From Streptococcus australis ATCC 700641 (GTDB lineage Bacteria > Bacillota > Bacilli > Lactobacillales > Streptococcaceae): 64,000 nt of DNA. The stretch is from positions 600,152 through 664,151 of the forward strand of contig NZ_GL636091.1 of assembly GCF_000186465.1 (NCBI RefSeq), written 5' to 3'. Made by a program: the position numbers and the translations under genes. Within the stretch, counting starts at the first letter, position 1. The number at the start of each line of letters is the position of its first letter. Positions 10,043-40,179 of the stretch are shown here, piece by piece. Below the pieces are notes generated by a model. The model saw only the letters and a list, made by a program, of their open reading frames with translations. It did no database searches and had not been told where the DNA came from.

Positions 10043-12136
10043 ATGACAGAAAAAGTTAGTGTAATTGTACCCGTATATAACGTTGAAAAATACCTTAGAC
10101 AGTGTTTGGATAGCATTCTTCAGCAGACCTATCAAAATCTTGAGATCCTAATCATCAATGATGGCTCAACAGATGGAAGTGATACGATTTGTCGAGAGTA
10201 TCTTGAAAAAGATGAGCGAATAACCTATCATGTTAAGGAAAATTTCGGTGTTTTTGATACCAGAGTGATAGGACTGCAAGAAGCATCTGGTGCCTATGTG
10301 ACCTTTGTTGATTCAGATGATTGGATAGAGAAAACCTATATTGAAGAACTGTATGATAAACTAATAACTTATCATGCAGATATAGTGGCCGCTAATTATT
10401 ATCTCTTTAATGATGCAGAGAGCCTTTTTTATTTCTTTATGGGGGAGCAGGATTATTATGAGCGCCTCTACACCCCTGTACAGCTGATTGATGGACTTTA
10501 TGAAACAAAGTTTAATAAGAGTTTTGCGCTCCTCTCTGCTTGGGGGAAACTTTACAAACGTTCCTTGTTTGATGAGTTACGATTTTCAGAGGATCGAATA
10601 GGAGAGGATCGTTTCTTGAGCCTCAAGGCTTTTTTGAGCAGTGAGAGAGTGGTTTATCTGAATAAGGGTTTATATGCTTATCGAGAACGTACTGGTAGTC
10701 TCTCTCATACATGGACTGGGGAGTGGATGCCTGCCTTGGTTTTTGCGATGGAGGAAAAATTGGCACTTTTAGCCAACCGGGGATATCCTCTTGAAAAAAC
10801 GATCAATCTTTATCAAATGATGTTAAAAGTATGTTTGGCAAATAGTCGATTTCATGGTTTAGAGAATAGTGAGGCTTATCGACAAATGACGGAAAAATAC
10901 CAAGCCTTGAGTTTGATACCACAACCGCATCGTGGAGAAAAACGGGCTATTGTTTTGGCTGCCAATTATCCTTATCTAGATCAGGTTTTGGCAACGATGA
11001 AATCAGTCCTTTACCACCATCGGAATATCCGCTTTTACCTCATCAATGGTGATTTTCCACAGGAGTGGTTTACGGGGATGAATCGTCATCTTGTTCGTTT
11101 TGATAGTGACATTGTAAATTGTCGTGTCACGAGTTCGCAGATCCAACAGTACAAGACAGATATATCTTATACCGTTTTCTTGAGGTACTTTATTTCGGAT
11201 TTTGTTAAAGAAGAGCGCGTGATTTACATGGATTGTGATATGGTAGTGACGGGGCCACTTGATGATCTATTTACAATGGATCTAAAGGGATATCCTGTCG
11301 CAGCAGTCCGAGATTATGGGGGACGTGTCTTTTACCACCGAGAAATCTTCAATGCAGGCTTTTTAGTGATTGACAATGCTTATTGGAGAGCCAAACAAAT
11401 GAGTCAATACCTGATTGAAATGACGAATGAATGGCACGATCGAGTGGATCAGGCAGATCAATCTATTTTAAATATGGTATTTGAAAACAATTGGTATGAA
11501 CTGCCATTTGATCTGAATCATGTTGTGCTGCACAATCATTTTACAGATTATCAAATTCCAGAAGGTCAAGAGTTTCCAAAGGTTCTCCATTATTTATCTC
11601 ATAGGAAACCATGGTTTCCGCTAGCGGCACAGACCTATCGAGATGTTTGGTGGTTTTATGCGCAATTGGATTGGTCTGAAGTTTCTAATAATGTTGATTT
11701 ATTTCCGCTGCGTGAAGTAGATCTCTACCCAGAAGGTCGTCTGCTTACTTGCTTGGTTTATACGAGTGTAGCTGAGATTCCTCATTTGGAAGATATGATT
11801 CAACGCTTACCGAATGTTTGCTTTAAGATTGCTGCGCGTGTTCTAGTATCCGACGAGCTTGCACGCCTGCTCGTCTACCCAAATGTAACTGTATACTCAG
11901 GAATTAATAACATGCCTAACCTAGATGCAGAGTTAGTTACCTTGAGTGATGTATTACTGGATATCAATCCTGGCGAAAAGACAATAGAAATCTTAGATCG
12001 TTTTCAGTTGGAAGATAAGCCAATCTTGGCTTTTGAAGAAGTGAAATCGACAGAGCATTATCAACAGGTATTCCCAATGGAAGATTGGCAAGGATTGGTT
12101 GATGCGATTTGTAATATGAGAAAGGTACGAGAATAA
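10043..12136 (+). CDS. Three-domain glycosyltransferase: GT2 + GT8 + accessory domain
   Basis: A 697-residue fusion. Residues 1-290: GT2 fold (NDGSTDGS; acidic motif VDSDDW). Residues 305-555: GT8 fold (RAIVLAANYPY start, DCD metal motif in MDCDMVV, FNAGFLVIDN, HYLSHRKPW). Residues 566-690: the locus-specific accessory domain (FKIAA, NVTVY, LLDIN). The two catalytic domains should add two successive sugars to the SRRP glycan. Donors cannot be read from sequence, but GT8 members of such loci are commonly galactosyl- or glucosyltransferases. The ribosome binding site is poor (AT-rich), unlike its neighbours. The next gene begins immediately after the stop. Confidence 0.88.
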   Translation: MTEKVSVIVPVYNVEKYLRQCLDSILQQTYQNLEILIINDGSTDGSDTICREYLEKDERITYHVKENFGVFDTRVIGLQEASGAYVTFVDSDDWIEKTYIEELYDKLITYHADIVAANYYLFNDAESLFYFFMGEQDYYERLYTPVQLIDGLYETKFNKSFALLSAWGKLYKRSLFDELRFSEDRIGEDRFLSLKAFLSSERVVYLNKGLYAYRERTGSLSHTWTGEWMPALVFAMEEKLALLANRGYPLEKTINLYQMMLKVCLANSRFHGLENSEAYRQMTEKYQALSLIPQPHRGEKRAIVLAANYPYLDQVLATMKSVLYHHRNIRFYLINGDFPQEWFTGMNRHLVRFDSDIVNCRVTSSQIQQYKTDISYTVFLRYFISDFVKEERVIYMDCDMVVTGPLDDLFTMDLKGYPVAAVRDYGGRVFYHREIFNAGFLVIDNAYWRAKQMSQYLIEMTNEWHDRVDQADQSILNMVFENNWYELPFDLNHVVLHNHFTDYQIPEGQEFPKVLHYLSHRKPWFPLAAQTYRDVWWFYAQLDWSEVSNNVDLFPLREVDLYPEGRLLTCLVYTSVAEIPHLEDMIQRLPNVCFKIAARVLVSDELARLLVYPNVTVYSGINNMPNLDAELVTLSDVLLDINPGEKTIEILDRFQLEDKPILAFEEVKSTEHYQQVFPMEDWQGLVDAICNMRKVRE

Positions 12137-13000
12137 ATGAAAGAATTTCAATTGGATGGTAAATTTCAACAGATTTCAATTGATCCTACAGCTCATGTCG
12201 AACTGGGGCAGGATGTTACCTTGCGTTCTTTTGTTTGCCTAGAGGTGGGAAATGGAGCAACCCTGAAACTCGGAAATCGCGTTTTCTTTAATATTAACTG
12301 TTCCATTCATTGTGGATATCATATTGAAATTGGTAAGGATACCATGTTTGGAGATGGCGTTCGTATTTTCGATAGTAATCATCAATATTCCAACTACCAC
12401 GTAGAAAAAATCGCTTTTAATTACGGAAAGATCTCGATCGGAAAAAATTGTTGGATTGGTGCCAATGTTGTGATTCTTAAGGGAGTCACGATCGGTGACA
12501 ATGTTATTATTGGTGCAGGAGCAGTCATTCATAAAGATATTCCAAGTAACTCCATTGTTGTAAGTAAAGAGGAACTCATCATAAAAGAGCGTCCTCAATT
12601 AGAGCATCATGTCTTTACTCTGACAGCTTCAGACACTCTGGAAAATCTGACTTATTTGGTAGAAAATCTTCCAGAAGTTTCGTTTCATATTGCAGCCAAG
12701 ACCAATGTTTCAAATCGCTTAGAAGCCTTTAAAAAGTATGACAATGTAACGTTATACACAAACGTCCACCATGATGATATTATAGAGGATTTATTGGATC
12801 AATCAGAAATCTACCTGGATATTAATCATTGGGATCAGGTGGATTCTATTGTAGATCGGGCATTTGAAAAGGGAAAACCAGTCTTTGCTTTTGATAATGT
12901 AGCTCACAGGGCAGAGTTGGGTGGTAGTATATTTTCTCATCAGTATCCTGAAATGATGGTGGAAGAAATTAAATCTTATCTGGCCACATTGGCTGATTAG
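12137..13000 (+). CDS. Hexapeptide acetyltransferase fused to the accessory domain
   Basis: A 287-residue protein. Residues 1-150 form a left-handed beta-helix acetyltransferase (WbbJ/maltose-acetyltransferase-like: HCGYHIEIG, DSNHQYSN, GKNCWIGANVVILKGVTIG, GAGAVI). Residues 157-285 are the accessory domain (FHIAA, NVTLY, YLDIN). That domain is otherwise found on glycosyltransferases of this locus, so the fusion ties this acetyltransferase to the same glycoprotein substrate. ATG directly abuts the previous stop codon. Its acetyl acceptor is inferred to be an SRRP glycan sugar. Confidence 0.85.
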   Translation: MKEFQLDGKFQQISIDPTAHVELGQDVTLRSFVCLEVGNGATLKLGNRVFFNINCSIHCGYHIEIGKDTMFGDGVRIFDSNHQYSNYHVEKIAFNYGKISIGKNCWIGANVVILKGVTIGDNVIIGAGAVIHKDIPSNSIVVSKEELIIKERPQLEHHVFTLTASDTLENLTYLVENLPEVSFHIAAKTNVSNRLEAFKKYDNVTLYTNVHHDDIIEDLLDQSEIYLDINHWDQVDSIVDRAFEKGKPVFAFDNVAHRAELGGSIFSHQYPEMMVEEIKSYLATLAD

Positions 13001-13058
13001 ACTTGTGGAGAGAGAAAGAACGTTATCAGAGTACAACTGGAACTTGCTTGGAGGAGAG

Positions 13059-14528
13059 ATGATTTACACTTTTAATCTGATGGTGGAATTAGAGCCTAAC
13101 GGTGTCGATGTTGCCCAGGCTTACCGTGGACAAATCTTTAGGAAACTGGGGTGCCCAGCACGCTTTGTCTTTACGCAAGTTCCTCCTAGATATAAATGGG
13201 ATTACTATTTGTCTTTAGGATATGCTGAAGATGAAATCATTTTAGTACATATGCTACTGACAGATCAGCGTGATATGACCTTGACAATGAGTGTGGAGAA
13301 AATGAAGCAAGGTTTGAATCTTCAATCCACTCCAATTGAACGAAATCAAGAGTTAATATTTCCGGAAGAGAATGGGATTTCGCTTGTCTTTCATCGAAAT
13401 ACTCTTAAGTCAAACTATGTTGATTATGTCGATTATTATGTAGCTGGTCATCTTCTTAGGAGGGAACATTACGGGAGTGTAAAGCTTTATACAGAATATT
13501 TTACAGCTGTTCCCACTGATGCGGGCTTAGAAGCAAGAGTCTTTCGCCGCCTTTTTTATAATTTGGATGGTTCCGTAGCTTTGGAGGAAATCAAAAAAAC
13601 ACCAGGTGATCTGATGAAGTCGGTCTATCGGCAGGGAGATCATTGGTTTTATAATGAGTCGGAGCTTTTGAGCCAAGCGATCAGCACCTTACAGTTCTCT
13701 GCAAAAGACCATATTATTGTGGATCGTTTAGAGCGTCTTCCCTTTACACAGACTCTTTTAAAAATGAAGGGAGAAGCAACCTTATCGTGTGTCCTTCATT
13801 CGATACACCATTGGGGCGACTGTATCAATTCAGAATATTTTCTTCTTTTTCAGTATGCTAACTATTTCGATCATATCATTGTATCTACGGAAGCTCAAAA
13901 GGAAGAATTAGAACGGGATCTGTCGACGGATAAGTCTGTATCGGTCTTGCCTGTCGGTGGACTTGAAGGCTTGCAATATGCTGATAATCGCAAACCTTAT
14001 AGCTTGATGATTGCGGCCCGGTTTGTGCGAAGAAAGAGATTGGACCTAGCGATCGATGCGGTAGTAGCCTTGCATAAAAAAATTCCAGAGGTTACATTGG
14101 ACATTTATGGTCAAGGTATGCTTTGGCAAGAAATAGAAGAAAAAATTAAGCAGTTAAATGCTCAAAGTTATATTCATCTCAAGGGGCACCAAGACCTTCA
14201 AACTCGTTTTAAGGAGTATGAACTTTATTTAGCCACTTCCGAGTGGGAAACATTTGGCTTAACCTTGTTAGAGGCGATAGGATCTGGTCTTGTCATGGTG
14301 GGGACAGATGTCCCTTATGGGAATCCCACTTTTATAAAAAATGATCAAAATGGTTTTCTCATTCCGTTTGTAGATCGATCACATGAAGAAGTGGTTGCTG
14401 ACTTGAATGGAGCTATGCAGAAGGCTTTCAAGCACTTGAATAGACTAAGAGAAGGTTCTTATGAATTGGCGAAACACTACATGACAGATCAAATGATGGG
14501 ACAATGGAGAGATTTTTTGGTGAAATAG
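13059..14528 (+). CDS. GtfA-like O-GlcNAc transferase subunit (first copy)
   Basis: A 489-residue GT-B protein of the accessory-Sec GtfA family (GT4). The frame is open to 13005, but ATG 13059 is chosen: it has ggaggaga directly upstream and gives the conserved opening (MIYTFNLMVELEPNGVDVAQAYR, compare the second copy). The EX7E catalytic pattern is kept in ETFGLTLLEAIGSG. GtfA with GtfB forms the complex that puts the first GlcNAc on Ser/Thr of SRRPs. This copy is clearly diverged from the gtfA at 37326. Together with the next gene it is a second, complete initiating pair, reminiscent of GtfE/GtfF in S. salivarius. Confidence 0.85.
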   Translation: MIYTFNLMVELEPNGVDVAQAYRGQIFRKLGCPARFVFTQVPPRYKWDYYLSLGYAEDEIILVHMLLTDQRDMTLTMSVEKMKQGLNLQSTPIERNQELIFPEENGISLVFHRNTLKSNYVDYVDYYVAGHLLRREHYGSVKLYTEYFTAVPTDAGLEARVFRRLFYNLDGSVALEEIKKTPGDLMKSVYRQGDHWFYNESELLSQAISTLQFSAKDHIIVDRLERLPFTQTLLKMKGEATLSCVLHSIHHWGDCINSEYFLLFQYANYFDHIIVSTEAQKEELERDLSTDKSVSVLPVGGLEGLQYADNRKPYSLMIAARFVRRKRLDLAIDAVVALHKKIPEVTLDIYGQGMLWQEIEEKIKQLNAQSYIHLKGHQDLQTRFKEYELYLATSEWETFGLTLLEAIGSGLVMVGTDVPYGNPTFIKNDQNGFLIPFVDRSHEEVVADLNGAMQKAFKHLNRLREGSYELAKHYMTDQMMGQWRDFLVK

Positions 14529-14541
14529 GGGAAGAATAGCG

Positions 14542-15780
14542 ATGTATTATCTAGTCAATGAATGGACCTTAGACGACGAGAGATTGAGGAAGGACTTAGA
14601 ACAAATTGGCCTATCAATCCAATCTCTACAGTTAGAAAATGTTCTGGATTCTATTTTTTCCAATCAGAAAGTGGACTCACCTCTGCATATGACCAGTCTT
14701 CCGCTACCCCCGTTTTGGGAAGTGTATGTGAATGGGGATGTTGTTGCTGATGGAGTGAAGAGGGGAAAGATAGACTGTTTTCAGGATCGCCCTCAAAGGG
14801 TTAAAAAAGTAGATTGGTATGATCCAGATGGTCATTGCTCTGCGAGTGACCACTATGATCGATCTGGTAGCCTCTTTCTGAAAGAAGTTTGGAGTGCAAA
14901 TGAACGCCATTTCTCTATTTATACGAATGATAGAATGGGGAAACTCTATCTATTCCATCAACACGATCGTGCGATCTACCAAGCGATCGATGGGTTAGAA
15001 CAGGGGTTTTCCTCTATAGAAGACGCGAAAAAGGCCCTTCTTCAAGAAGCTCTTTTGCAGGCTGAAACAGTCTTCTTGTCTGATCCAGAATTGTTGAAGG
15101 CCTTACCCAAACTTGAGAAGGAACAGATTATCTTCTATGGTCGGTCAACTCTTTCTGAAGCAGAACTTGCTCCTCTGGTGGACAAGGGTGTAAAAGTGTT
15201 CGTTCGTGAGCCTAACATTGATATGGCGCCTCATTCGCTAGTATTTTTCCCGACCTATTTGGGAGATTTGAGGGAATTTCAGCCACAGGTTCTTATTTTG
15301 ACAAATACACAAGAGATCGAACAGATTGAAGTTCTTGTGACCGCTCTTCCTCATTTTCAGTTTCATATTGCAGCCTTGACAGAAATGGGGGAACGATTAG
15401 TGCGTCTCAATGATTACCCAAATGTTTACCTTTATCCAGGGATTTCAGATGATAATTATGAGTGGTTATTAGATAAATGCCGTATCTACCTAGATATCGC
15501 TTATGCAGATGAAATTTTAGACGGAAATCGAATGGCTCTTGAAAAAGGAATGGTTTTATATGCCTTTGAAGAAACCTGTCACCGACCAAATGTCTATACA
15601 AAAGATCACTTGTTTCAAAAAGATTCCGTTACAGACTTGCTCGATGAACTATCTCAGCTGGAAGATCCTAAAAGATATCAATCAGCCTATGATAAGCAAA
15701 AGATGCATCCGACGCTAGCAACAAAAGAAGAGTTAAAGAGGATGGTTCAAATGACAGAAAATAAAGAAGGGAAACTATGA
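14542..15780 (+). CDS. GtfB-like partner subunit (first copy)
   Basis: A 412-residue protein resembling the GtfB co-activator. The N-terminal part (to about 230) is beta-rich ([17 protein letters not shown] ... [13 protein letters not shown]). The C-terminal part (about 250-375) is the accessory Rossmann-like domain (FHIAA, NVYLYP, YLDIA). It is 39 residues shorter than the gtfB at 38824. GtfB binds the acceptor peptide and stabilises GtfA. It lies 13 bp behind the GtfA-like gene and overlaps gtf3 by 4 bp (ATGA), so all three are co-translated. Confidence 0.8.
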
Positions 15781-16787
15781 CGAAAGTACATATTACAAAT
15801 CTATATGGTATGGCAGGCGATAGCACTGTAATCTTAGCTCAGAATGCTGTGACAGAAATTGCACGTTCAATGGGTTTTCGTGAAATCGGAATCTATTTTT
15901 ACAATATCACGACAGATAGTCCAGGGGAACGAAGCAAGCGTCTGGATGGGATCATGGCTAGTATCTCATTTGGAGATATTGTTATCTTTCAATCACCAAC
16001 TTGGAATGGTTGGGAATTTGATGCGGAATTTGTAGCGAAGATGAAGGATCTGAGGGTCAAATTAGTGGTGTTCATCCATGACGTTGTCCCACTGATGTTC
16101 CGAGATAATGCCTACCTCATGCCAGTTTATATGGATATGTTCAACCAAGCAGATGTTATTATTGCGCCATCACAGCAGATGGTAGATTGTCTGCGTAAAG
16201 AAGGGCTAACGGTGAAAAAAGTCTTGATTCAAGAATTTTGGGATCATCCTCATAACCTCAATTTGAACCAACCAGTATTTAAAAAAGAGATTTTCTTTGC
16301 AGGATCTTTGACACGTTTTCCAGAGTTGCAAAATTGGGTTTATGAAACCCCTTTGCGAGTTTTTGCGAATGAGCCAAAGAGCAATCCAGAAGCCAATTTG
16401 GTGATTGAAGGATGGAAGCGCAATGAAGAACTCCTGATGGAACTCTCAAGGGGAGGTTTTGGCCTTGTCTGGAATACCCAGTACAACGATGGGGAGAATG
16501 TTGACTACTATGAAATGAATATTTCACATAAGCTCAGCACCTATCTTGCAGCAGGAATTCCTGTGATTGTACCCAACACCTTATCAAATAGTCATCTGAT
16601 AGAAGAGCGTGGTTTAGGCTTTGCTGTGAACAGTTTGGCAGAGGCTGATCAATTGGTTCAAAATATGGATCCGAAAATGTATCAAGAGATCAGTAGTAGG
16701 GCTCAAAGCTTTGCTTTCCTCCTTAAAGAGGGCTATATCACTAAGAAGTTGTTAGTCGATTCAATCTTTTGCCTGGCCTGCAAGTGA
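15777..16787 (+). CDS. gtf3: Gtf3/Nss: second-step glucosyltransferase
   Basis: A 336-residue GT-B enzyme closely resembling streptococcal Gtf3 (Nss), which adds glucose from UDP-glucose to the GlcNAc placed by GtfA/GtfB. Visible features are the opening [27 protein letters not shown], the mid-protein [10 protein letters not shown], and the donor-site stretch [17 protein letters not shown]. Family length is about 330. The ATG overlaps the GtfB-like stop. It is a cytoplasmic protein and the second enzyme of the glycan pathway. A 44-bp AT-rich gap separates it from the next gene. Confidence 0.87.
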
Positions 16788-16831
16788 TGAATTTCTTTCA
16801 CATCGCACTCTCTGCTAAAATATAAAAGAAA

Positions 16832-17725
16832 ATGAAAAAAATGGAAAAAATTAGTGTCATCGTCCCTGTGTATAATTCAGAGGCTTATCTTGAAAATTGC
16901 TTAAATAGTATCATCCAACAGACCTATCAAAATTTAGAAATTATCTTAGTCAACGATGGTTCAACGGATGGTTCTGCCGCTATTTGCCAACGCTACAAGA
17001 TTCAGGACCCTCGAGTGAAGGTCTATCATAAGCCTAATGGAGGAGTTGGATCAAGCCGGAATCGTGCTTTAGAAGCGGTGACGGGTGACTATATTCTCTT
17101 TGTGGATAACGATGATTGGTTGGAACTGGATCATATCGAGAGTTTATATCATTTGCTGAAAAAAGCAGATGCAGATATTGCAATTGGAAATTTCACTCAA
17201 TTTATGGAAGAAGAGGGGAACTTTTTAATCCATGTTGGGGGAAATGATTATTTCGAGCGTGTCTATTCTCCTTTTGAGTGGTTCCAACATCAATATGAAG
17301 GACAATATAATCTGAGCCAATGTTTCACGGTCCCTTGGGCAAAGCTTTATAAGGTGGAATTGTTTAAGGAGATTGTTTATCCAACAGATAAAACGGTAGA
17401 GGATGATTATACGACCTACAAGGTCTATCTACAAGCCGATAAAATTGTCTATATGAACCGTGCCATCTATCTGCATCGTAAACGTGAGACAAGTGTGACT
17501 AAAACGGTCAATCTTGCAGATGTTTATCCGTTACAAAGTATCGAAGAACGCATGATGATTCTTCAATTGATCGGAGCTCCAAAGGGCTTAATAGATGCAG
17601 AAATTGCTGCTTACAAGTGGCGATTGGCCATTCATGAAGAAGAGACCTTAAAACATGGAGACATGGAAGCTTACCAGCAAGTACTGGTAAAAAGACGGAT
17701 CAAGGAGAAGAGTGTTCATGCATGA
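16832..17725 (+). CDS. Family 2 glycosyltransferase
   Basis: A 297-residue single-domain GT2 enzyme. The nucleotide-sugar motif is NDGSTDGSAA and the acidic metal motif VDNDDW. It is very similar to the GT2 domain of the 697-residue protein at 10043 (identical PVYN, LNSIIQQTYQNLEI-type opening), so the two probably arose by duplication. It has no C-terminal accessory domain, unlike several neighbours. The start may be ATG 16832 or 16841; the ribosome binding site is weak. It overlaps the next gene. Expected to add one sugar to the growing SRRP glycan; donor unknown. Confidence 0.87.
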   Translation: MKKMEKISVIVPVYNSEAYLENCLNSIIQQTYQNLEIILVNDGSTDGSAAICQRYKIQDPRVKVYHKPNGGVGSSRNRALEAVTGDYILFVDNDDWLELDHIESLYHLLKKADADIAIGNFTQFMEEEGNFLIHVGGNDYFERVYSPFEWFQHQYEGQYNLSQCFTVPWAKLYKVELFKEIVYPTDKTVEDDYTTYKVYLQADKIVYMNRAIYLHRKRETSVTKTVNLADVYPLQSIEERMMILQLIGAPKGLIDAEIAAYKWRLAIHEEETLKHGDMEAYQQVLVKRRIKEKSVHA

Positions 17726-20177
17726 TACAAAAAGTCGAGCGATTGTTCTAGCAGGAAATCAGAACTATACCGCTCAGTTATCGACGACTATAAAATCCAT
17801 CTTTTATCACAATAAAGATGTGAAAATTTATGTTTTGAATCGAGATATCCTTCCAGACTGGTTTCGAAAACCACGGAGGATGGCTCAGCTCTTAGGGGGT
17901 GACCTCATTGATGTCAAACTGGATCCAGACGATCTGAAGGATACCTGGTGGACTCAGGAACATATTAGTATGGATACGTATTCTCGCTATTTTATTTCCA
18001 AGTATATCTCAGAGGAAAAGGTGCTGTATCTCGATGCGGATTTGCTGGTTCTAAAGAACTTAGAGGATGTCTTTGAAATAGATATGAAGGACTACCCGAT
18101 TGCAGCCGTGATGGACACAGATAACCAAAGCTTTAATGCGGGTGTCTTATTAATTGACAATGGTTTGTGGAAACGAGAAAATATGACAGATCAGTTGGTG
18201 AATGAGACGAATGGTTCACTCCGGCAAGCTCTGGAAGGAAATATTCCTAAATTTAATGGGGACCAGACAATCTTTAATAAGGTCTTTCGTGATAGATGGT
18301 TGGCCTTGGATAAAAGGATGAACCTCCAAGTTGGTCATGACGTGACGGCTTTTATGAGTCATTGGCCAAATCACTTTATAGATAGTGAAGATCCCTATAT
18401 TGTGCATTTTGTCTCTCACCGAAAACCATGGACGACGCTAAGTGCCAATCGTTTCCGCCAATTATGGTGGGCCTTTCATGATATGGATTACAGTCAGGTC
18501 TTGTCTCACCATATGGGGGACTTCCAGATAGAGGTGGATCCAGATTATGAGCTCCATCTGTTCAATTTGACCAATTCTCAATCCTTTAAAAACCTTGAGG
18601 AATTGATTCAGGGACATCCGAAGGCCTTGTTCCATATTGCTGCCTATACGGAAATGGGAGAGGAATTGGTGCATCTTGCAAAATATGAAAATGTTAGATT
18701 GTATCCAGAAATCGTCCCTCCAGTATTGGAAGAACTTATCCATCGTTCTGCTGCCTATTTAGATATTAATTATGGTACTGCTGATCAAGCAACCTTGGCG
18801 ACTTATGCGAAAACAGGAAAACCAATCTTGTCCTTCCCGGAAACCAGACATAGTGAGCAAGCGCAGTTAGAGGTTAACACAGTTGAACAAATGCATTCAC
18901 TCATTAAAGAGCGTATAAAGACAGGGAAATGGGGAGAAGTTCACGAGCTTCCACGATTGAACTCCTTTACCATGACCCAAACGCAAGATCTCGAGTCAAT
19001 TGAAGAACTGGTTTGTGCTCTTCCTTTTGTAGAGTTTCATATCGGCGCTTGGACAGCAATGGGGCCTAAGTTAATCGAATTAAAGAAACATCCCAATGTT
19101 AGTTTGTATCCTGCGATCAATCAGGAGCAGTTGACCCAGTTGATTCATAGTGCGGATCTTTATTTGGATATTAATCATGGCGATGAAGCTGGTGAGATTC
19201 TATCACAGGTAGAATTGGCGGGGATTCCTAGTTTTGGTTTTTATAAAACCCAACACGGGAACCATGGGCAGTTTCTTTTTTCAAGTGAGCGACCACAGGA
19301 ACTGATCACGGCAATTGAACAGTTGGATAGGGAAGGAAGCTTGCCTCAAATTCTCCCTCTACCTACGGTTAAGTCCATTGATGAGAGTCTGGACTTCATT
19401 AGGGAAAATCATTCATCTGTCATTCGTTTTGGAGATGGTGAAATCAATCTAATAGCTGGCCATTCTATCGCCTACCAAGATTATCATCCTGAACTAGCAC
19501 GGTCTCTACGTGAGTTGGTTGGAATGAACAGTTCAGAAAAACTCTTAGTCTGTTTGCCAGATGCTTTCGAAAATCGCTTCCAATTTACATGGTGGGCAGA
19601 AGATTTTTGGAAAAAGCATTTGGATCATTATGATCAGTTTTATCGTGAAATTGCTCCAGCCTCTTGCTATGGTTCTACCTTTATTTCACGTCCTTATATT
19701 GACTTTAAAGATAAAAGTCGAGCGGCCTCCCAGTTTGACAAACTTAAAAAACTGTGGAAAAATCGAGATATTCTGATTGTTGAAGGAGCAACTTCTCGTA
19801 CAGGGGTGGGAAATGATCTGTTTGATCGTGCAAACTCCATCCTACGAATTGTTTGTTCTTCACACAATGCTTATAAGGATGTGGACACAATTGAGGCCAC
19901 GATTCGCCAATATGCGGAGGATCGTTTAATTCTAATTATGTTAGGCCCAACGGCAAAAGTGTTGGCTGCTCATTTGGCGAATGATGGTTACCAAGCACTG
20001 GATATTGGGCATATTGATTCAGAATACGAGTGGCTACAGATGGGAGCACAGACGAAAGTTAAGTTGAAACACAAACACACGGCAGAATATAATTTTGACC
20101 AAGATATTGAATTCATCGAAGATGAAACCTACACCAAACAAATCGTGGCAGACTTATCTCGTTTGCCAATAGAATAA
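17718..20177 (+). CDS. GT8 + two accessory domains + GT-D (DUF1792) fusion
   Basis: An 819-residue protein. Residues 1-265: GT8 domain (DAD in [26 protein letters not shown]). Residues 276-400 and 414-540: two tandem accessory domains (FHIAA/NVRLYP/YLDIN and FHIGA/NVSLYP/YLDIN). Residues 555-800: a GT-D fold domain (DUF1792) with the diagnostic acidic motif in RFGDGEINLI, the domain first described in S. parasanguinis Fap1 glycosylation (dGT1). Two catalytic centres in one chain imply two successive transfers. ATG 17718 is chosen (aaggagaag seven bases upstream; GTG 17712 is the longer option). The start overlaps the preceding GT2 gene. Confidence 0.88.
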   Translation: MHDTKSRAIVLAGNQNYTAQLSTTIKSIFYHNKDVKIYVLNRDILPDWFRKPRRMAQLLGGDLIDVKLDPDDLKDTWWTQEHISMDTYSRYFISKYISEEKVLYLDADLLVLKNLEDVFEIDMKDYPIAAVMDTDNQSFNAGVLLIDNGLWKRENMTDQLVNETNGSLRQALEGNIPKFNGDQTIFNKVFRDRWLALDKRMNLQVGHDVTAFMSHWPNHFIDSEDPYIVHFVSHRKPWTTLSANRFRQLWWAFHDMDYSQVLSHHMGDFQIEVDPDYELHLFNLTNSQSFKNLEELIQGHPKALFHIAAYTEMGEELVHLAKYENVRLYPEIVPPVLEELIHRSAAYLDINYGTADQATLATYAKTGKPILSFPETRHSEQAQLEVNTVEQMHSLIKERIKTGKWGEVHELPRLNSFTMTQTQDLESIEELVCALPFVEFHIGAWTAMGPKLIELKKHPNVSLYPAINQEQLTQLIHSADLYLDINHGDEAGEILSQVELAGIPSFGFYKTQHGNHGQFLFSSERPQELITAIEQLDREGSLPQILPLPTVKSIDESLDFIRENHSSVIRFGDGEINLIAGHSIAYQDYHPELARSLRELVGMNSSEKLLVCLPDAFENRFQFTWWAEDFWKKHLDHYDQFYREIAPASCYGSTFISRPYIDFKDKSRAASQFDKLKKLWKNRDILIVEGATSRTGVGNDLFDRANSILRIVCSSHNAYKDVDTIEATIRQYAEDRLILIMLGPTAKVLAAHLANDGYQALDIGHIDSEYEWLQMGAQTKVKLKHKHTAEYNFDQDIEFIEDETYTKQIVADLSRLPIE

Positions 20178-20186
20178 GAAAGATAT

Positions 20187-21431
20187 ATGAATAATAAAAA
20201 TGCAGTAGTATTGGCAGGAGATTATGCTTATATTCGTCAGATAGAGACCGCTTTAAAATCTCTTTGCTATCACAATCGCCAGCTTAAAATATACCTTTTC
20301 AATCAAGATATCCCAGTCGAGTGGTTCCGTGCCACGAGAGAGCATGTGGAGAGACTCGGAGGAGAGCTTCTTGATATTAAGTTGATTGGACCACAGTTCC
20401 AGATGAATTGGACGAACAAACTGGGTCATATCAACCATATGACCTTTGCACGGTATTTTATTCCAGATTTTGTTCAGGAGGATCAGGTTCTTTATTTGGA
20501 TAGTGATCTTGTTGTGACTGGGAATCTTGATTCTCTTTTCAATCAGGAGTTGGGAGAGAATTATGTTGCTGCCGTTCGTTCTTGTTTTGATGCGGGAATC
20601 GGTTTTAATGCGGGCGTATTATTGATCAATAACCGTCTTTGGAAGGATCAGCAAATCCGTCAGGTTCTAGTCGAAACGACAGAGCGCGAACATGCAAATG
20701 TGGGAGAAGGGGATCAATCGATTCTCAATATGGTATTTGAAGATCGCTATTTAAAATTGGATGATATTTACAATTTTCAAATTGGTTTTGATGCGGGAGC
20801 GGGGGAAGCTGGTCATCGTTTTGTGTTTGAAATCCCTTTGGACCCGCTTCCTCTGATTCTTCATTATATCTCTCCTGATAAACCGTGGAACCAATTTTCA
20901 GTAGTGAGATTACGTGACCAGTGGTGGCGGTATCATCTAATGGAATGGTCTGAGGTGATGAGTCATTGGAAAGAACGTGGCTTTGAGTTGGGACCAAAAA
21001 ATTCCAAGCCCCTTCTAACCTGTTATACACTAACGAATTCTTATCTCTTAGAACAGATAGAATATTTGGTCCAACACCTTCCGGAAGTTCATTTTGAAAT
21101 CGCTGCTTATACTTATATGGCAGTAGATTTGTTACGTTTATCACAATATCCGAATGTGAGTCTTTATCCGAATACGTATCCGCTTTTGATCGAGCAACAG
21201 TTACCACAGGTAGATCTTTATTTAGATATCAATCATTTTGATAAAATTCCATTGATATATGAGTTGGTTGGTCAGGCCGGAATCGCGATGTTTGCATTTA
21301 AAAATACCCAGGGACAGGGACAAACTTATCAGGGTGTTTTTTCTCATGAACATCCAGAAGAAATGGTGGTAGCTATTCGTCATTATATTGAAGAGCGTAG
21401 AAGTAATAGAAAGGGGCCAGAATTATTGTGA
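20187..21431 (+). CDS. GT8 glycosyltransferase with accessory domain
   Basis: A 414-residue protein. Residues 1-260: GT8 domain (VVLAGDYAY opening, DSD in [26 protein letters not shown]). Residues 274-405: accessory domain (FEIAA, NVSLYP, YLDIN). Its layout equals the N-terminal half of the preceding fusion protein, pointing to duplication within the locus. Likely a galactosyl- or glucosyltransferase acting late on the SRRP glycan; the donor is not readable from sequence. It overlaps secY2 by 4 bp (GTGA), coupling glycan building to the export genes. Confidence 0.87.
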
Positions 21432-28999: not shown

Positions 29000-29001
29000 T
29001 T

Positions 29002-29713: not shown

Positions 29714-32700
29714 ATGCATTTTAAACGAACCAAAGGTCAATATCGCGAAACAGATTGCGTGACACGTTTCAAATTAATAAAATCAGGAAAACATTGGCTC
29801 CGTGCTGCGACTTCTTATTTTGGATTGTTCCGGATCCTCAAGGGCGGAGTTGACAAGGTAAGCGTCCAAGTACCACAGCTCGAAGAAAACGCACCTTCTT
29901 CAGTAAAAGAGCACTTATTAAAGGGATTGTTAACAACGGGAGCCTTGTTAACTGGAGCAACTACGACCTATCGTGTACAAGCGGATGAATCGAATGATCC
30001 ATCTGCTCTTGAGCGTGCGGTAAGTCCAGCGACAGATGTTTTGGCGGCATCAGATTCAGCTGTTTTAGGTCACTCATCAGAGTCTTCACAATCACAAACA
30101 GAAGCGACGTCAGCTTCTATTTCAGATTCAGCCTCTGTAGAAGCTTCTGTGTCTCATTCATTGAGTGTGTCAACGAGTGCGAGTGAATCTGCTAGCACGT
30201 CCGCATCTGAGTCAGCATCAACCTCGGCTTCAGAGTCTGCCAGCACTTCAGCGTCCCAAAGCGCCTCAACAAGTGCCTCAGAATCGATGAGTTCATCACT
30301 TTCTATGTCATCAGAGCCTATTGACTCTCAAGTTGTTTCTGGTGAAAAATTTAATTCTACAGTAGATTCTGAAGTTCAAGTTGTTGATTCTCACATGTTT
30401 TCTAGCTTGGTAGATTTAAATAGTCGAACCACGATTATTACTTCTACTGCTACAGCAACTATTGCGATGACATCAACATCTGAAGTAACATCTAAGAAAA
30501 TGGATGAAGATCGCAAGAAACTTGAAAAATTGTCTGCCGAAATGGGCGAATATCTTGCTAAGGCGGTAGATTTACCGGATACAGATTCAGCTATTCTCAA
30601 AGTTAAGACGGCTACTGCTGAGATTGAGTTAGCGCTTAAGGATCCAAATGCAGATCTAGGTGCAGTTGTTAAGTCTGCTACTTCAGCTCGTAACTCTATC
30701 GCCAATGCTGTTTTACGTGCAAATTCAGGTCAACGTGATAGTCGGAATGGTCAAGCTATGCCAACAGGAGAAAGCCTCAGAGGTTTTGCCCCTGTAACGC
30801 TAAATCAGCATACGACAGCTGAACTTGTTGAGGGAACGTTTGCAAGCAGTAATCGTGAGGTCCTTTGGCGTATCAATATGCATTCACAGAGCCCGCTTAA
30901 CTACGCAGGTCTGATCGCACAAGTGGATAAAAATACAACCATCACTCGAGTTCTTTTCAATGGGGAAGAAATGGAGAAACGTGGTAGTTCTGGAAATGAG
31001 TATGTTTTTAATAAGCGGCATGATTTGAATAGAAACTTAGATGCGACTATTTTAATCTACGCAGAGGTCAATAATAATTCTAGTGAAGCTACTTTGAATG
31101 CCCAGGTGGCTACAAGTAGTAGACCGTTCGATAGCGCTGCAACTGCTGGAAACTATACCCGAGTTATGAATGGTAGGGTTCCAACTGGAACAGGTCAGCG
31201 ATTAGGCAGTAAACCACCATCTATTAAATTACCAAAAGAGATTACCTACTACAATGACGATAATATCGAAACTGTAAATATGCCGCTGAGTGATGATGTA
31301 GGGATGAAGCGCCTAGATGCTGCAAATAGTAATCCAATCATTACTGGCTTGAGTGCACCTAACTATCCAGCAACTAGCAGAAATGGTTATGGAGATCTTG
31401 GGACATATGATAGACGTGGTCGTTTTACAGGATACCAGAAATCGTATAATGTACAAATTGTAGGGATGATTGGTCGAAACAACGGAATAGGACAAGCTGG
31501 TCGTGCAGATGGAGCTTGGGAACCGTATAAACCTGGTGCATATGTTCTCGAATATACAGTTACGGATACTGACAATCAAACCTCTACAGCTCGGATGACT
31601 GTTCGTATCAAAGGCTTCAACGAACGTAACGAACCTGTGAGTGGTGACACTGTTACAGTTAACAATCCATCATCTTTGAGCGAGACTGAGAGAGCTCAAA
31701 TTCTTGCAAACTTCAAGAGCAGAAATGCTGCTATCCTTTCAGGCACTGACTACGTGAAGGGTTCTGAAGGTGGTAAAGAAATTACAGTGTCTAACACTGG
31801 TGAAATCACCATTACTTATCGTGATAACACTGTGGATGTCGTCCAAGGTGGCGTAAGAGCTGAAACAGAAGTACCTGTACCTGCTGTTACAGTGATGCGT
31901 GATGGTCAGACTATCCCAGCTACTCCAAGTCCAGTAAGTAGTCGTGGAGATGAGCACATCGTCTATGCTGGTGATGATTTTACGATTAAGTTTACTGCAA
32001 CTGATAATAGTGGTAAGTTAAAAGAGTTCAAGATTGTTCCGAAAGCAGATGGAACCCAACCAGGGTTGAGAGATAACTACTTTGAAGACCCTAAATACGG
32101 TACAGGAACTGTAGGACTCTTGACAGGAGATATCACAGCTACGCCAGAAAATCCAGCAACAATTACAGTCAACGCTCATATGAAAGATGATCTGGAGTGG
32201 AAGTCAGGAAATACTTGGCAACGAAATGCAGTTGCAACTGACCAAGTAGGAAACGTTAACGCCACAACTGGAACTGGAAATGTTCGTATTACCCAAGGGG
32301 AACTTAGGAACCGTCTTGCAGTGACAAATCCTGTTATTACACCAGTTGCAGATAAGAGTAACTTGACTGAAACTGAAAAGACAGCTGTCAAGAATGCTAT
32401 CTACGCTAAGAATAATCAGACAACTCACCGTATCAAAGACATTGAAGTTGCAAACGATGGTACTGCGAAGATTATTTATAAGGATTTAACAAGTAATAGT
32501 CTTCCTCAGTTAGTAACTGTTAATGAACGGCCAAAATTGGTAATTCCATATGATAGACCAGATGTCAAAGAAATCGATATCTATCGTGGTGAGCCTACTA
32601 ACCTAACCTTTAGTGCGACAGATGATTCTGGGGAAATTTCCTCTTTGAAGTTTGAAACACAAGGTACAGCTGACAATGCTAATGGTACAAACTACGCAGG

Positions 32701-35700: not shown

Positions 35701-36839
35701 CTGAATCCGCAAGTACGTCAGCGTCGCAAAGCGCTTCAACAAGTTCGAGCGAATCCGCAAGTACTAGCGCATCGCAAAGTGAATCTACAAGTGCGAGCGA
35801 ATCAGCAAGCACCTCAGCATCACAAAGTGCATCAACAAGTGCAAGCGAATCCGCAAGTACGTCCGCATCGCAAAGTGCTTCAACAAGTGCAAGTGAATCC
35901 GCAAGTACGTCCGCATCGCAAAGTGCGTCTACAAGTGCGAGCGAATCAGCAAGTACGTCAGCGTCACAAAGTGCTTCGACAAGTGCGAGCGAGTCCGCAA
36001 GTACGTCCGCATCACAAAGTGCTTCAACGAGTGCGAGCGAATCAGCAAGTACATCAGCCTCACAAAGCGCTTCAACCAGTGCCAGCGAATCAGCAAGTAC
36101 TAGCGCATCGCAAAGCGCTTCAACAAGTGCTTCTGAATCAGCAAGCACCTCAGCATCGCAAAGTGCGTCTACAAGTGCAAGTGAATCCGCAAGTACGTCC
36201 GCTTCACAAAGTGCATCGACAAGTGCTTCTGAATCAGCAAGCACCTCTGCTTCAATGAGTGCTTCAACGAGTGCGAGCGAATCTGCAAGTACAAGTGCTT
36301 CATTGAGCGCCTCAACCAGTGCATCAAACTCTGTTATTACAAGTAAGGGAGAGCCTGAGATCCACTCTCTTGATAGCATTGATATTAATAGTGTTATTAT
36401 CTCGGATTCTATGAGTGTGTCTGTATCTGAGAGCATCTCAGCATCGCAAAGTGTCTCAACGAGTGCCTCAGCATCCGCAAGCACCTCTGCTTCAATGAGT
36501 GCGTCAACTAGTGCTTCAGAGTCCGCAAGTACATCCGCATCACAAAGTGCCTCAACAAGCACTTCAGAATCAGCAAGCACCTCAGCATCGCAAAGCGCTT
36601 CAACGAGTGCATCAGAATCCGCAAGTACCAGCGCTTCTCTAAGTACAAGTATTTCAGCTTCAACCTCAGCACAGTCGTCAGAGACACATGCGAAATTGCC
36701 ACAAACAGGTGATCAGTCAGCTAATACAGCTACCCTTGGACTTGGTTTACTAACAGGTTTAGTCGGCTTGGGAGTTGTTGCTAAAAGAAGAAAAGACGAG
36801 GATGAAGATGGAGATGGAGATGGAGTAATTGGACAGTAG
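29714..36839 (+). CDS. Serine-rich repeat glycoprotein adhesin, frameshifted in the second repeat region
   Basis: About 2,374 residues if repaired. The 90-residue accessory-Sec signal peptide has the KxGKxW-type motif ([10 protein letters not shown]) and cleavage after YRVQA. A short SRR1 spans about 115-205. An alpha-helical segment at about 258-338 ([18 protein letters not shown]...) is reminiscent of the Fap1 NR-alpha domain. A long beta-rich binding region to about 1655 holds recurring modules ([10 protein letters not shown] / [11 protein letters not shown] / [11 protein letters not shown] and LTETEK). A long SRR2, LPQTG, a membrane helix and an acid-rich tail ([13 protein letters not shown]) complete it. 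One extra C at 35683/35684 shifts SRR2 to [12 protein letters not shown] at 35704; the wall anchor lies in the other frame (to 36839). As written the product is 1,996 residues, would still be exported, but could not be anchored. Confidence 0.9.
34698..36670 (+). repeat. SRR2: 48-bp tandem repeat ([16 protein letters not shown])
   Basis: About 2 kb of a 16-residue unit alternating SASESAST and SASQSAST, degenerate mostly at codon third positions (agt/tca/agc/tct). This is the glycosylated stalk of the adhesin. One non-repeat island (about 36328-36430: [19 protein letters not shown]) interrupts it near the end, and a second short block follows. It contains the frameshift at 35683. Copy number should vary between strains and is hard to assemble. 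Confidence 0.92.
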
Positions 36840-36917
36840 TGAAGTTTGTTCACCTTTATTCTTCAGTACAAGAGAGGTTGGAAACAAAGTGCCCGACCTT
36901 CGATGACTAATAGTTAT

Positions 36918-36964
36918 AAGTGCTTGAAACACTGCTTCGAGGTAGTGGTGAGAACTTACAAAGA
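36918..36964 (+). repeat. BOX-like element downstream of the SRRP gene
   Basis: tgcttgaaacactgcttcgaggtagtggtgagaact-type sequence resembles the BOX core (ttgctcaaaacactgttttgagg then gatagaactgac) in forward orientation. It is degenerate. With the reverse-oriented element at 29430, similar repeats flank the adhesin gene on both sides. Confidence 0.45.
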
Positions 36965-37003
36965 AAGTTTCTTTTAGCCATAATCTTATGCTATATAACT
37001 TTT

Positions 37004-37061
37004 AAAGGGGTGGGACTACGAATGAATTTAGTTTAAATTCGTTCAGTCTCACTCCCTTTTT
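37004..37061 (+). terminator. Terminator of the SRRP transcript
   Basis: Long stem: ggggtgggact pairs with agtctcactccc, extended by gaatgaattta / taaattcgttc, followed by ttttt. It lies 165 bp after the stop of the repaired SRRP frame. Confidence 0.8.
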
Positions 37062-37178
37062 ATATTTAATGGATATGTTAAAAGGAAACTTTTAAAATAA
37101 TAATTGCAGAACAAGTATTTCGAGGTAGTAGGATGTTGTTTTTTGAAGTATTTATCTAGTGTTGAATAGTAAATTGTG

Positions 37179-37187
37179 TGTTATAAT
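37179..37187 (+). promoter_or_regulatory. gtfA-gtfB promoter
   Basis: Extended -10 TGTTATAAT; TTGAAT at 37162 is only 14 bp away, so the -35 is uncertain. The leader to the gtfA start is about 130 nt. Confidence 0.6.
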
Positions 37188-37325
37188 GTTAGTCGTACTA
37201 ATTGGAAATGATTAGTTTTTTTAATCGGTTAAAATGTGGTTGGGACAATGTCTCTCCCTCCTCATTCTGTAATGTAGAAATTAAAAAAGGAAAAGCGCCT
37301 TGCATTTTCCACAAAAGAGGACATT

Positions 37326-38840
37326 ATGACAGTATATAATATCAACCTGGGAATCGGTTGGGCCAGCAGTGGTGTCGAGTATGCCCAGGCCTACCGTGCC
37401 CAGTTGTTACGCAATATCCATGAACCAGCCAAATTTGTATTTATGGATATGATCTTAGCCGATAATATCCAGCATCTAACAGAAAATATCGGTTTTAAAA
37501 ATAATGAAATCATCTGGCTCTACAGCCATTTCACGGATATAAAGATAGCACCTACGACCTATACGATTGATCAGGTTTTAGCAGGATTTGCAGGGAAACC
37601 GACGCGAGAAGAAGTCGAGGGCAAGATCAAGCGCTTCTTTTATGAGGACCAAGACAACTTTTTGACCTGCTACCTGCGGGAAGAAAACAGTCCCTATGTA
37701 GAACGCTGCGAGTATGTGTCCAGAGGGATCTTGGTGAGAAAGGATTATTTCTCCTACACTCGTTACTGTACTGAGTACTTTATTCCTAAGAATAATCAAG
37801 CTACTTTGATTGAGCGTCGTTTTTACAATGAAGATGGAAGTGTTGCTTACAGCATGCAGATGGCGGATGGTCGTGAAGTCTACCGTTTTCCAGACCGTTT
37901 CCTAGTTGGTCGGCAAGAATTGATCCGTTACTTCATGCAGACCCTTAAATTGACCAAGCAAGATCTGGTTATTTTAGATCGGGAAACCAATATCGGGCAG
38001 CCTATCTTTGAAGAAGCACAAAAAGCTCGCCTGGGTGTAGTTGTTCATGCAGAGCATTTCAGTGCCAATAATGTTGATGATCAGTACATCTTGTGGAATA
38101 ACTATTACGACTACCAATTTACAAATGCGGACAAGGTGGATTTCTTTATTGTCGCTACCGACCGTCAAAAAGAAGTCTTGGCAGAGCAGTTTGTCAAATA
38201 CACAAACCATCGACCTGTTATCTATACCATTCCGGTTGGTAGTCTTGCAAGCTTGCCACAAAACGAAAATCGCACGCCATTTTCTATGATCACCGCCTCT
38301 CGCTTAGCAACTGAGAAACATATTGATTGGTTGGTCCGAGCAGTGGTCTGTGCCAAAAAAGAGTTACCAGAGCTATCCTTTGATATCTATGGCAATGGTG
38401 GAGAAGAGGGAAAGTTGCGCTCTCTTATCAATGAATTAGGGGCGACAGATTATATCCGTCTCAAAGGACATGCCAATCTTGAAGAGATTTATAAGAACTA
38501 TGAAGTTTACCTATCTGCATCGACTAGCGAAGGCTTTGGTTTGACTTTAATGGAGGCTATTGGTTCTGGTCTTCCGATTATTGGTTTTGATGTTCCTTAT
38601 GGCAATCAGACCTTTGTAGTAGAAGGAAGAAATGGCTATTTGATTCCATCTTCTTCTGATCAAGTGGTGGATCATATTGCTTCTTCCTATGCTGAAAAGA
38701 TTGTTTTGCTCTACCAAAATGAAGAGCTAGCGAATATGCGCCAAGCATCTTATGAGCGTGCGGAAGACTTTTTGACCAGCCGAGTAGAAGAAGCTTGGTC
38801 TCAATTGATTGAAGAGGTGACACATGCTGAATGTATTTGA
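37326..38840 (+). CDS. gtfA: GtfA: SRRP O-GlcNAc transferase, catalytic subunit (second pair)
   Basis: A 504-residue GT-B (GT4) enzyme that starts SRRP glycosylation by adding GlcNAc to Ser/Thr, with GtfB as partner. The N-terminal family signature is VYNINLGIGWASSGVEYAQAYR, followed by the beta-sheet add-on domain (to about 180) and the donor-site EX7E motif in TSEGFGLTLMEAIGSG (about residue 401). It lies just downstream of the SRRP gene, the classic position. It overlaps gtfB by 17 bp. It differs clearly from the GtfA-like protein at 13059. Confidence 0.95.
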   Translation: MTVYNINLGIGWASSGVEYAQAYRAQLLRNIHEPAKFVFMDMILADNIQHLTENIGFKNNEIIWLYSHFTDIKIAPTTYTIDQVLAGFAGKPTREEVEGKIKRFFYEDQDNFLTCYLREENSPYVERCEYVSRGILVRKDYFSYTRYCTEYFIPKNNQATLIERRFYNEDGSVAYSMQMADGREVYRFPDRFLVGRQELIRYFMQTLKLTKQDLVILDRETNIGQPIFEEAQKARLGVVVHAEHFSANNVDDQYILWNNYYDYQFTNADKVDFFIVATDRQKEVLAEQFVKYTNHRPVIYTIPVGSLASLPQNENRTPFSMITASRLATEKHIDWLVRAVVCAKKELPELSFDIYGNGGEEGKLRSLINELGATDYIRLKGHANLEEIYKNYEVYLSASTSEGFGLTLMEAIGSGLPIIGFDVPYGNQTFVVEGRNGYLIPSSSDQVVDHIASSYAEKIVLLYQNEELANMRQASYERAEDFLTSRVEEAWSQLIEEVTHAECI

Positions 38841-40179
38841 TAGTTATTCTCGTGAAAGCCAAGATTTGCTTCATTCTATGCAGGAGTCTGGTTTTCATCA
38901 TCCGACAGTCGTTCTAGAGCCAGATGCTTTCTTGCCAGACGGTGTAGAGTCTCCTTTCCTTTATTTCTTAGGACAGCCAAAAGGTGAAAAACGAGGACGT
39001 TATTTTAATGAAGTCCTAGTTCCAGATTTTTGGGAAATTTCTGGTGATAACAATATGGGGAAAGTGACTTATTATGGTCAGGAGAAGGCTCGTATTTATT
39101 ATCATATAGCTTCTTATAAACGTATTGTTGAACGTGTAGAGTGGTTGGATGACAAAAATCAAGTTGTGATGATCGAGCGCTATGATCAATACGGTCGCAA
39201 GATTGCTGTTACGACTTGTGATGGTCAAGGACAACCCTTAGTGACCACTTATTTGGAGGGAACGATTGAGCGCCTGACAGAAAATCATCAAACAGGTGAT
39301 TTGATCTTAACCTTGCCTAATTCCCCTATGCAAATTTTTAAGAGTCGCTTAGATTATTTCATGTTCTATCTAGAATATAGAGGTTTTAATCTAGATAAAG
39401 TGATCTATAATACACTGGCCCTCTCCTTCAATGTTAGTCTACACTTGGGAAATAAAGGTGTTGAGGGGAATGATCTCTTAATTTGGCAGGAACCTCTTTA
39501 TGATGAATTGCCTGGGAATATGCAGTTTATTTTATCTACTCCAAATTTGCGTACAAATAAAATTGTGATCCCTCAGATTAGCACCTACCAACGTGCTTTA
39601 GAATTAACTTCAACAGAACAACACAGATTCTTTAAGCCATTGGGCTACATTTATGATTTTCAGGTTAAAGAAGACATTCGTAAGGATACCTTTATCTTGA
39701 CAAATTCTGATCAAATTGAGGCTCTAACTGAGCTAGTAGAGAAGTTACCGGATGTTACTTTTAGAATTGCAGCGTTAACGGAAATGTCTCCAGTACTTTC
39801 TTCAATGGTCCGCTATCCTAACGTTGTCTTATACCAAAATATTAGTCAAGATTGCATCAAAGAATTATTGATTCAGTCAAGTATTTATTTGGATATTAAC
39901 CACTATGGTGAGGTACAAGGTATTGTTCGTAAAGCATTTGAACACCAACAAATTATTCTAGGCTTTTCACACACCTTACATGATCGACGTTATATTGCGC
40001 AAGAAAATATCTTTGAACAAGGAAAGGAAGCTGACTTCGTAGCGCGTATCCGGGAAATCTACCAAACTGTAGAGACATACAAGGAAGCTGTGGTTCAACA
40101 AATTACCCAATCAAGTAGCATTGAACCAGCTGTTTTCCGAGCTCGTTTGCAAGAAGAAATAGGCATACAAGCTAAATGA
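38824..40179 (+). CDS. gtfB: GtfB: SRRP glycosylation co-activator (second pair)
   Basis: A 451-residue partner of GtfA that binds and presents the polypeptide acceptor. The N-terminal half is beta-rich (DFWEISGDNNMGKVTYYGQEKARIYY-type strands; each such module is also in the first GtfB-like protein). The C-terminal domain (about 289-420) has the accessory-domain signatures FRIAA, NVVLYQ and YLDIN. The start overlaps gtfA, so translation is coupled. After the stop comes a short remnant with a good ribosome binding site but only 11 codons (40201), then repeat copy B and the IS. Confidence 0.93.
   Translation: MLNVFDSYSRESQDLLHSMQESGFHHPTVVLEPDAFLPDGVESPFLYFLGQPKGEKRGRYFNEVLVPDFWEISGDNNMGKVTYYGQEKARIYYHIASYKRIVERVEWLDDKNQVVMIERYDQYGRKIAVTTCDGQGQPLVTTYLEGTIERLTENHQTGDLILTLPNSPMQIFKSRLDYFMFYLEYRGFNLDKVIYNTLALSFNVSLHLGNKGVEGNDLLIWQEPLYDELPGNMQFILSTPNLRTNKIVIPQISTYQRALELTSTEQHRFFKPLGYIYDFQVKEDIRKDTFILTNSDQIEALTELVEKLPDVTFRIAALTEMSPVLSSMVRYPNVVLYQNISQDCIKELLIQSSIYLDINHYGEVQGIVRKAFEHQQIILGFSHTLHDRRYIAQENIFEQGKEADFVARIREIYQTVETYKEAVVQQITQSSSIEPAVFRARLQEEIGIQAK

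Follow-up and report, generated by a model that had tools for sequence, protein, structure and literature searches.

The window analysed here, a 64,000-nucleotide stretch of Streptococcus australis ATCC 700641, carries a streptococcal serine-rich repeat protein (SRRP) locus with its accessory Sec system. Within this locus, a module of about 125 residues occurs seven times in six proteins, always in an open frame. GtfB (TIGR02919; PDB IDs 5e9t and 5e9u) and GlyE (PDB IDs 5gvv and 5gvw) both have this module as their C-terminal Rossmann domain. It looks like the donor-side (C-terminal) lobe of a GT-B/GT4 glycosyltransferase in degenerate form, and this dead glycosyltransferase half probably now serves as a tag by which enzymes are brought to the adhesin. 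The seven copies are as follows.

11738..12115, + strand: copy 1, C-terminus of the GT2-GT8 protein (gene 10043-12136, residues 566-691)
12602..12991, + strand: copy 2, C-terminus of the hexapeptide acetyltransferase (gene 12137-13000, residues 156-285)
15289..15666, + strand: copy 3, C-terminus of GtfB-like protein 1 (GtfB1; gene 14542-15780, residues 250-375)
18543..18920, + strand: copy 4, first of the tandem in the GT8/GT-D fusion (gene 17712-20177, residues 278-403)
18960..19337, + strand: copy 5, second of the tandem in the same fusion (residues 417-542)
21006..21401, + strand: copy 6, C-terminus of the GlyE-like GT8 (gene 20187-21431, residues 274-405)
39688..40086, + strand: copy 7, C-terminus of GtfB protein 2 (GtfB2; gene 38824-40179, residues 289-421)

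The alignment of the seven copies has 141 columns with 13 invariant positions, and identity to the first row is 27-33%. In a leave-one-out search, a profile of six copies was compared with all 607 stop-to-stop six-frame segments of at least 40 amino acids in the window. The held-out copy was recovered by the other six in 7/7 cases, with domain i-E from 1.7e-23 (GT2-GT8) to 2.2e-40 (acetyltransferase), and no eighth copy was found among the 607 segments. The seven copies are thus confirmed where the original prediction had placed them, with boundaries differing by 0-2 nt. Its statement that the module is absent from the stand-alone GT2, Gtf3, the first acetyltransferase and both GtfA proteins of the window also holds, as none of them matched the module profiles. 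Its six enzymes are indeed six proteins, but only four of them are enzymes and two are GtfB, because GtfB is described as a catalytically inactive chaperone (PMC12809243, in the excerpted text). The proposed signature motifs apply approximately rather than strictly, with YLDIA in GtfB1 and LLDIN in the GT2-GT8 protein. None of the seven window copies had a significant Pfam match over the module. A weak antisense match to the module profiles opposite the adhesin gene (30394..30729, - strand; E 2.9e-4 to 2.5e-3 in 5/7 runs) is probably due to chance.

The NCBIfam model TIGR02919 (GtfB) matched all six proteins with E from 1.1e-13 to 1.5e-138. The match was best over positions 276-436 in the four enzymes and GtfB1 and extended over the whole length in GtfB2; two stretches were counted in the GT8/GT-D fusion. 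The module corresponds to GtfB residues ~285-410, and the N-terminal part of GtfB (Gtf2), the accessory Sec glycosylation chaperone, was unmatched in the window enzymes. Only the protein encoded at 38824 passed the equivalog cut-off of 338.3 bits (462.2 bits), whereas GtfB1 at 14542 (173.9 bits) and the four enzymes (50.8-167.5 bits) fell below it. The window GT8 matched GlyE (5gvv) over residues 2-401 (E 4.9e-165), and the C-terminal domain of GlyE has the same fold as the module and detectable sequence kinship with it. The acetyltransferase copy, the sole copy modelled well, was predicted to fold as in GlyE and GtfB, so that no difference in fold spoke against a common domain; the model of the whole GT8/GT-D fusion (mean pLDDT 48.5) was not used. 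The TIGR02919 matches and the fold comparison support the proposal that the module is the Rossmann-like C-terminal domain of GtfB. The label PF27244 was shown on two GtfB homologues.

The fold of the module is that of the GT4 donor-binding lobe, as in SenB, TarM, PimA, SdgB and GtfA. However, the GT4 motif ExFGx4E, found in 54/55 GtfA proteins, was present in 0/221 modules, and the place of the GT4 arginine was taken by Asp or Gln in 149/221 (aligned by eye). Conserved over the 221 modules were T163, N203 and D228 (96-99%) and N230 (87%), and the conserved polar positions clustered on the cleft side of the module. No Pfam GT-B domain was found in the four enzymes of the window.

We then considered the partners of the module in 80 loci, each 13-20 kb long, which were drawn from 61 genomes and hold 214 modules; most loci were chosen for holding the module, so the partner counts lean upward. 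By number of open reading frames (ORFs), the architectures were GT8-module (68), GtfB-module (53, including one whose N-terminal part matched in two pieces), acetyltransferase-module (20), GT2-GT8-module (17), GT8-module-module-GT-D (11), GT8-module-GT8-module-GT-D (8), module-acetyltransferase (6), GT8-module-GT-D (5) and Gtf3-module-GT-D (2); there were also five single cases, GT-D-module among them. The copies are paralogues on many catalytic domains, as the claim of spread by duplication had it, and the hexapeptide acetyltransferase carries the module at either its N- or its C-terminal end. None of the 53 GtfA proteins in the sampled loci had a module, nor did SecY2, SecA2 or Asp1-3. A Pfam search of 18 whole genomes gave 57 GT8 match rows (including gene fragments, and with four rows on contigs without a listed asp1), of which 38 were followed by a module and 19 were not. 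Within 35 kb of asp1, 25 rows had a module and 5 did not, as compared with 11 and 12 farther away.

An initial count (GT8 62/63, GT2+GT8 17/17) had suggested that every GT8 in an SRRP locus has a module. This generalisation was dropped, since the score thresholds of the count had excluded six ORFs with weak module-free GT8-GT2 fusions (four in L056 and one each in L030 and L083; one of the six had been entered as GT-D). L056, from genome G111, breaks the pattern: beside secY2, at 8927-17916, it has four large GT8/GT2/GT-D proteins that lack a module. The two Gtf3-module-GT-D fusions (L032, 12019-14280; L078, 4703-7021) have 754 and 773 residues. In L023, a single ORF at 14296-16716 reads GT8-module-module-partial GT-D-module; perhaps a deletion fused two genes. 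The two acetyltransferase orders appeared mutually exclusive in the 61 genomes (6 versus 20, none with both), but Streptococcus mitis SK564 contradicted this, with module-acetyltransferase and acetyltransferase-module genes in one locus (L122, 2539-3435 and 5974-6849).

In a tree of the 221 modules, partner classes clustered: labels changed 18 times, as compared with 135.4 times on average after shuffling, although near-copies also cluster. A second tree of 88 rows was made from the 221 by dropping 12 long-branched rows and rows of fewer than 110 residues and limiting the rest per class. In it, the modules of GtfB, of the C-terminal and of the N-terminal acetyltransferase fusions each formed one starred clade. 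The GT8 modules were scattered, with 10 label changes in the 221-module tree and 5 in the 88-row tree. The tandem modules of the GT8/GT-D fusions grouped together weakly (support 36). The modules of the Gtf3-GT-D fusions and of two GT8-GT-D fusions fell within the set of second tandem modules (support 95), as if a module-GT-D unit had been passed on. That the N-terminal acetyltransferase form acquired its module independently was considered but not upheld: its modules were placed apart in the tree, but a single clade for both forms was not rejected (p-AU 0.119). In 16 genomes, the acetyltransferase domains of the N- and C-terminal forms matched each other with E of 1e-37 to 1e-39 and 41-51% identity, as compared with 1e-23 and 35% between the N-terminal form and its best module-free kin. 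The catalytic domains of the two orders therefore look, at the sequence level, like one family. A tree of these domains was poorly resolved because several module-free rows were short and long-branched, and some fell among the fusions.

In genome samples, Asp1 served to mark the presence of the accessory Sec system. Among 197 Streptococcus genomes, 132 had the module and 122 had Asp1; the module was found in 122/122 Asp1-positive but only 10/75 Asp1-negative genomes. In a class-level sample of 398 genomes, it was present in 36/37 Asp1-positive versus 5/361 Asp1-negative genomes and in 6/145 genera, and in a phylum-level sample 2/398 genomes matched, both Streptococcus. Up to 11 copies were found per genome, and 93/122 Asp1-positive genomes had two or more. 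We give no probability for this co-occurrence because of the overlap between the samples and the relatedness of the genomes. Among the ten Asp1-negative module-bearing Streptococcus genomes, eight carry the module on a GtfB adjoining GtfA, another (G079) on a short GtfB-like protein adjoining GtfA, and the tenth (G121) on a GT8 alone. Two of the eight, G171 and G144, have it also on an enzyme, which in G144 lies beside a SecY2 fragment. Four genomes of another family (G484, G206, G287 and G549; L044, L051, L052 and L053) have GtfA-GtfB with no Asp1 match, and in one of these loci the pair adjoins a serine-rich LPxTG ORF at a contig end. In L026 (G168), a GtfB gene at 9319-10674, with no GtfA or Sec gene detected in its stretch, adjoins an ORF rich in Ser/Thr that encodes at least 2875 residues and runs to the stretch end (11275-19902).

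Copies of the module also lie outside SRRP loci. In several genomes, module-bearing genes were at least 150 kb from asp1. In six stretches (L021, L022, L028, L029, L047 and L048), a module-bearing enzyme had no other SRRP-type gene within its 20 kb, except for a weak acetyltransferase match in L047 and L048, and the neighbours in four of those stretches look, by eye, like ordinary chromosomal genes. A pattern scan of a genome collection with the acetyltransferase fusion returned 50 loci; 20 matched across the module, all from Streptococcus, and no module was found in the other 30, which came from several phyla and included four further streptococci. Eight Streptococcus sanguinis records (L119, L125, L128, L130, L131, L132, L134 and L136) each had a lone acetyltransferase-module gene, with no other gene of the query set within ~6 kb on either side, and in S. 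sanguinis 2908 the fusion lies ~125 kb from asp1. The original prediction would be refuted by a module found widely outside SRRP loci, and on this the outcome is mixed: copies do occur there, but Asp1 was present in 122/132 module-bearing genomes of the genus and 36/41 of the class sample.

How might the module act? GtfB is described as a catalytically inactive chaperone and inactive acceptor-binding subunit (PMC12809243) and as a chaperone and substrate-binding domain (PMC8498110), both in the excerpts available. Because of these descriptions of its parent protein, we infer that the module holds enzymes on the adhesin. It would recognise a common feature of the target glycoprotein, either the Ser/Thr-rich backbone or the first sugars, in the cleft that formerly held the donor sugar. 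In this way it may hold the follow-up enzymes (GT8, GT-D, GT2-GT8 and acetyltransferase) on the serine-rich repeat acceptor. As a modular tag, placed at either end of the acetyltransferase, it might allow distant genes to act on that target too. The presence of the tag on an acetyltransferase fits, because O-acetylation by Asp2 of GlcNAc on GspB is reported in the excerpted text of PMC7948813. Lectin domains tether mucin-type transferases, and by analogy the module may tether its enzymes. We tentatively carry this idea further: the dead glycosyltransferase half may be a cytosolic reader of a bacterial mucin-like glycoprotein, whose old donor pocket would see a core sugar or the Ser/Thr backbone. 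One copy would then enrol any enzyme, glycosyltransferase or acetyltransferase, near or far, and the module would list many of the adhesin-modifying enzymes.

Other roles have to be weighed against an acceptor-directed tag. The module might be an enzyme-enzyme docking or oligomerisation domain that builds a metabolon around GtfA/GtfB or among the enzymes themselves, with no acceptor contact. The co-occurrence and the partner pattern would be equally expected, and Jiang et al. in 2017 are said to have speculated that the add-on domain forwards the acceptor between enzymes. In the available text of PMC5063993, the activity of S. parasanguinis dGT1 depends on a helical domain that brings about oligomerisation, which shows that assembly can be a task of accessory domains in this pathway. 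However, a fixed complex tolerates less well what is seen here, namely genes at least 150 kb from asp1, unlike scaffolds and attachment at either terminus, and the conserved polar positions gather at the cleft; we regard docking as rather unlikely. A structural or solubility remnant of duplication with no specific ligand is improbable. Persistence within the single clades of the GtfB and the two acetyltransferase module classes could be inertia, but N- and C-terminal fusions of one acetyltransferase family, the single, tandem and interleaved copies, the scatter of GT8 copies over the tree (10 label changes) and the retention of T163, N203, D228 and N230 all argue for selection. The fold of a GT4 donor-binding lobe would suit a module that still binds a nucleotide sugar, as a hidden catalytic or allosteric donor site. 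This is very improbable, given that the GT4 form of E-x7-E is missing in 221/221 copies, that the arginine is mostly replaced and that the window's four enzymes have no Pfam GT-B domain.

Several observations weigh against the module as a tag for the adhesin. At the set thresholds it was found on none of the stand-alone GT2 (0/30), Gtf3 without GT-D (0/28) or first-type acetyltransferases (0/6), and the sampling of loci inflates the counts of its partners. G111 has four GT8-bearing proteins without a module within 11 kb of asp1. Conversely, G121 has a GT8-module gene without Asp1 and without any other module, and one class-sample genome (G491) has Asp1 with no module match; its locus, L054, contains Asp1-3, SecY2, GtfA-like and Gtf3-like genes. 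Two Glu seven residues apart occur somewhere in the relevant stretch of 28/221 modules, although never as the GT4 motif. Conservation in the cleft could also reflect a protein partner that the copies share. Moreover, a review states, in its excerpted text, that GtfA and GtfB touch the acceptor and each other via DUF1975, not via the module (PMC6973325).

Asp1 had been proposed as a further relative of the module through a matching LIVDLSPEP stretch. This found no sequence support (hhalign E 0.2, probability 0.3%, 21 columns), and Asp1 gave no match to the module profiles in the window, so kinship by sequence was dropped. The Asp1 chains 5vae, 6lnw and 6oyc were not named among the 50 fold matches listed (Foldseek, VIA), which excludes nothing. 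Asp1 itself is described as GT-B-like, and a remote common fold of the two is possible.

From left to right, the locus contains the first hexapeptide acetyltransferase, GT2-GT8, the second acetyltransferase, GtfA1-GtfB1, Gtf3, GT2, the GT8/GT-D fusion, the GlyE-like GT8, SecY2, Asp1-3, SecA2, the adhesin and a second GtfA-GtfB pair. SecY2, Asp2, Asp3, SecA2 and the adhesin were named by eye, and Asp1 by eye and by a separate check. Features besides the module copies are as follows.

12137..13000, + strand: acetyltransferase-module fusion, 287 aa
13005..14528, + strand: GtfA-like protein 1, GT4, without module
17712..20177, + strand: GT8-module-module-GT-D fusion, 821 aa
23015..24457, + strand: Asp1, marker of the accessory Sec system, without module kinship by sequence
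37326..38840, + strand: GtfA protein 2, without module

The two GtfA-GtfB pairs span 13005-15780 and 37326-40179. Both members of the first scored well below their NCBIfam cut-offs (GtfA1 353.7 versus 574.6; GtfB1 173.9 versus 338.3), whereas the second GtfB passed. Similar pairs lie away from Sec genes in L012, L020 and L040, and another is in L049, from a genome without Asp1. The adhesin (29714-36839) is in two overlapping frames that meet within the serine-rich repeats (~35550-35704), by an assembly error or a real break. A truncated LPxTG surface protein occupies the left edge of the window (3-1619), and an IS30-like transposase follows the second GtfB (40618-41334), both named by eye.

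The closest known system is the Rossmann 'add-on' domain of pneumococcal GlyE (5gvv and 5gvw), of the same fold and family as the module. Jiang et al. in 2017 (J Biol Chem 292:6213) reportedly gave it this name, noted it as common to GlyA, GlyD and GlyE and speculated that it forwards the acceptor, so the idea of a shared add-on is not new. Unlike that add-on, the module described here is also found on acetyltransferases in both orders and in Gtf3-GT-D and GT8-module-GT8-module-GT-D proteins; some of the genes that carry it lie far from the locus, and it is tied to GtfB by sequence and fold. The helical binding domain of S. parasanguinis dGT1/CgT is likewise an accessory domain on an SRRP glycosyltransferase and needed for activity, but it consists of three helices and is described, in the excerpted text, as without known homologues (PMC5063993). 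The same text describes dGT1 as having two catalytic domains; in L056, a module-free GT-D protein followed by a GT-A part is arranged roughly like dGT1/CgT. In the literature as far as it was accessible, we found neither the acetyltransferase fusion nor the identity of the add-on with the GtfB domain described, and nothing on dispersed copies or the co-occurrence; key subscription articles lay outside the search, so earlier accounts may exist. The GtfB kinship, the acetyltransferase fusions, the dispersed genes and the genome-wide co-occurrence with Asp1 extend the known add-on in ways that we have not seen in print. If the module is such a tag, a short profile would pick out the enzymes of serine-rich repeat adhesins, including those outside the locus, such as the product of the lone acetyltransferase-module gene of S. 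sanguinis. It could also be borrowed as a portable tag when glycoproteins are to be built in laboratory strains, and it would help to account for the way in which cytosolic enzymes keep to a single long, mucin-like substrate over many steps.

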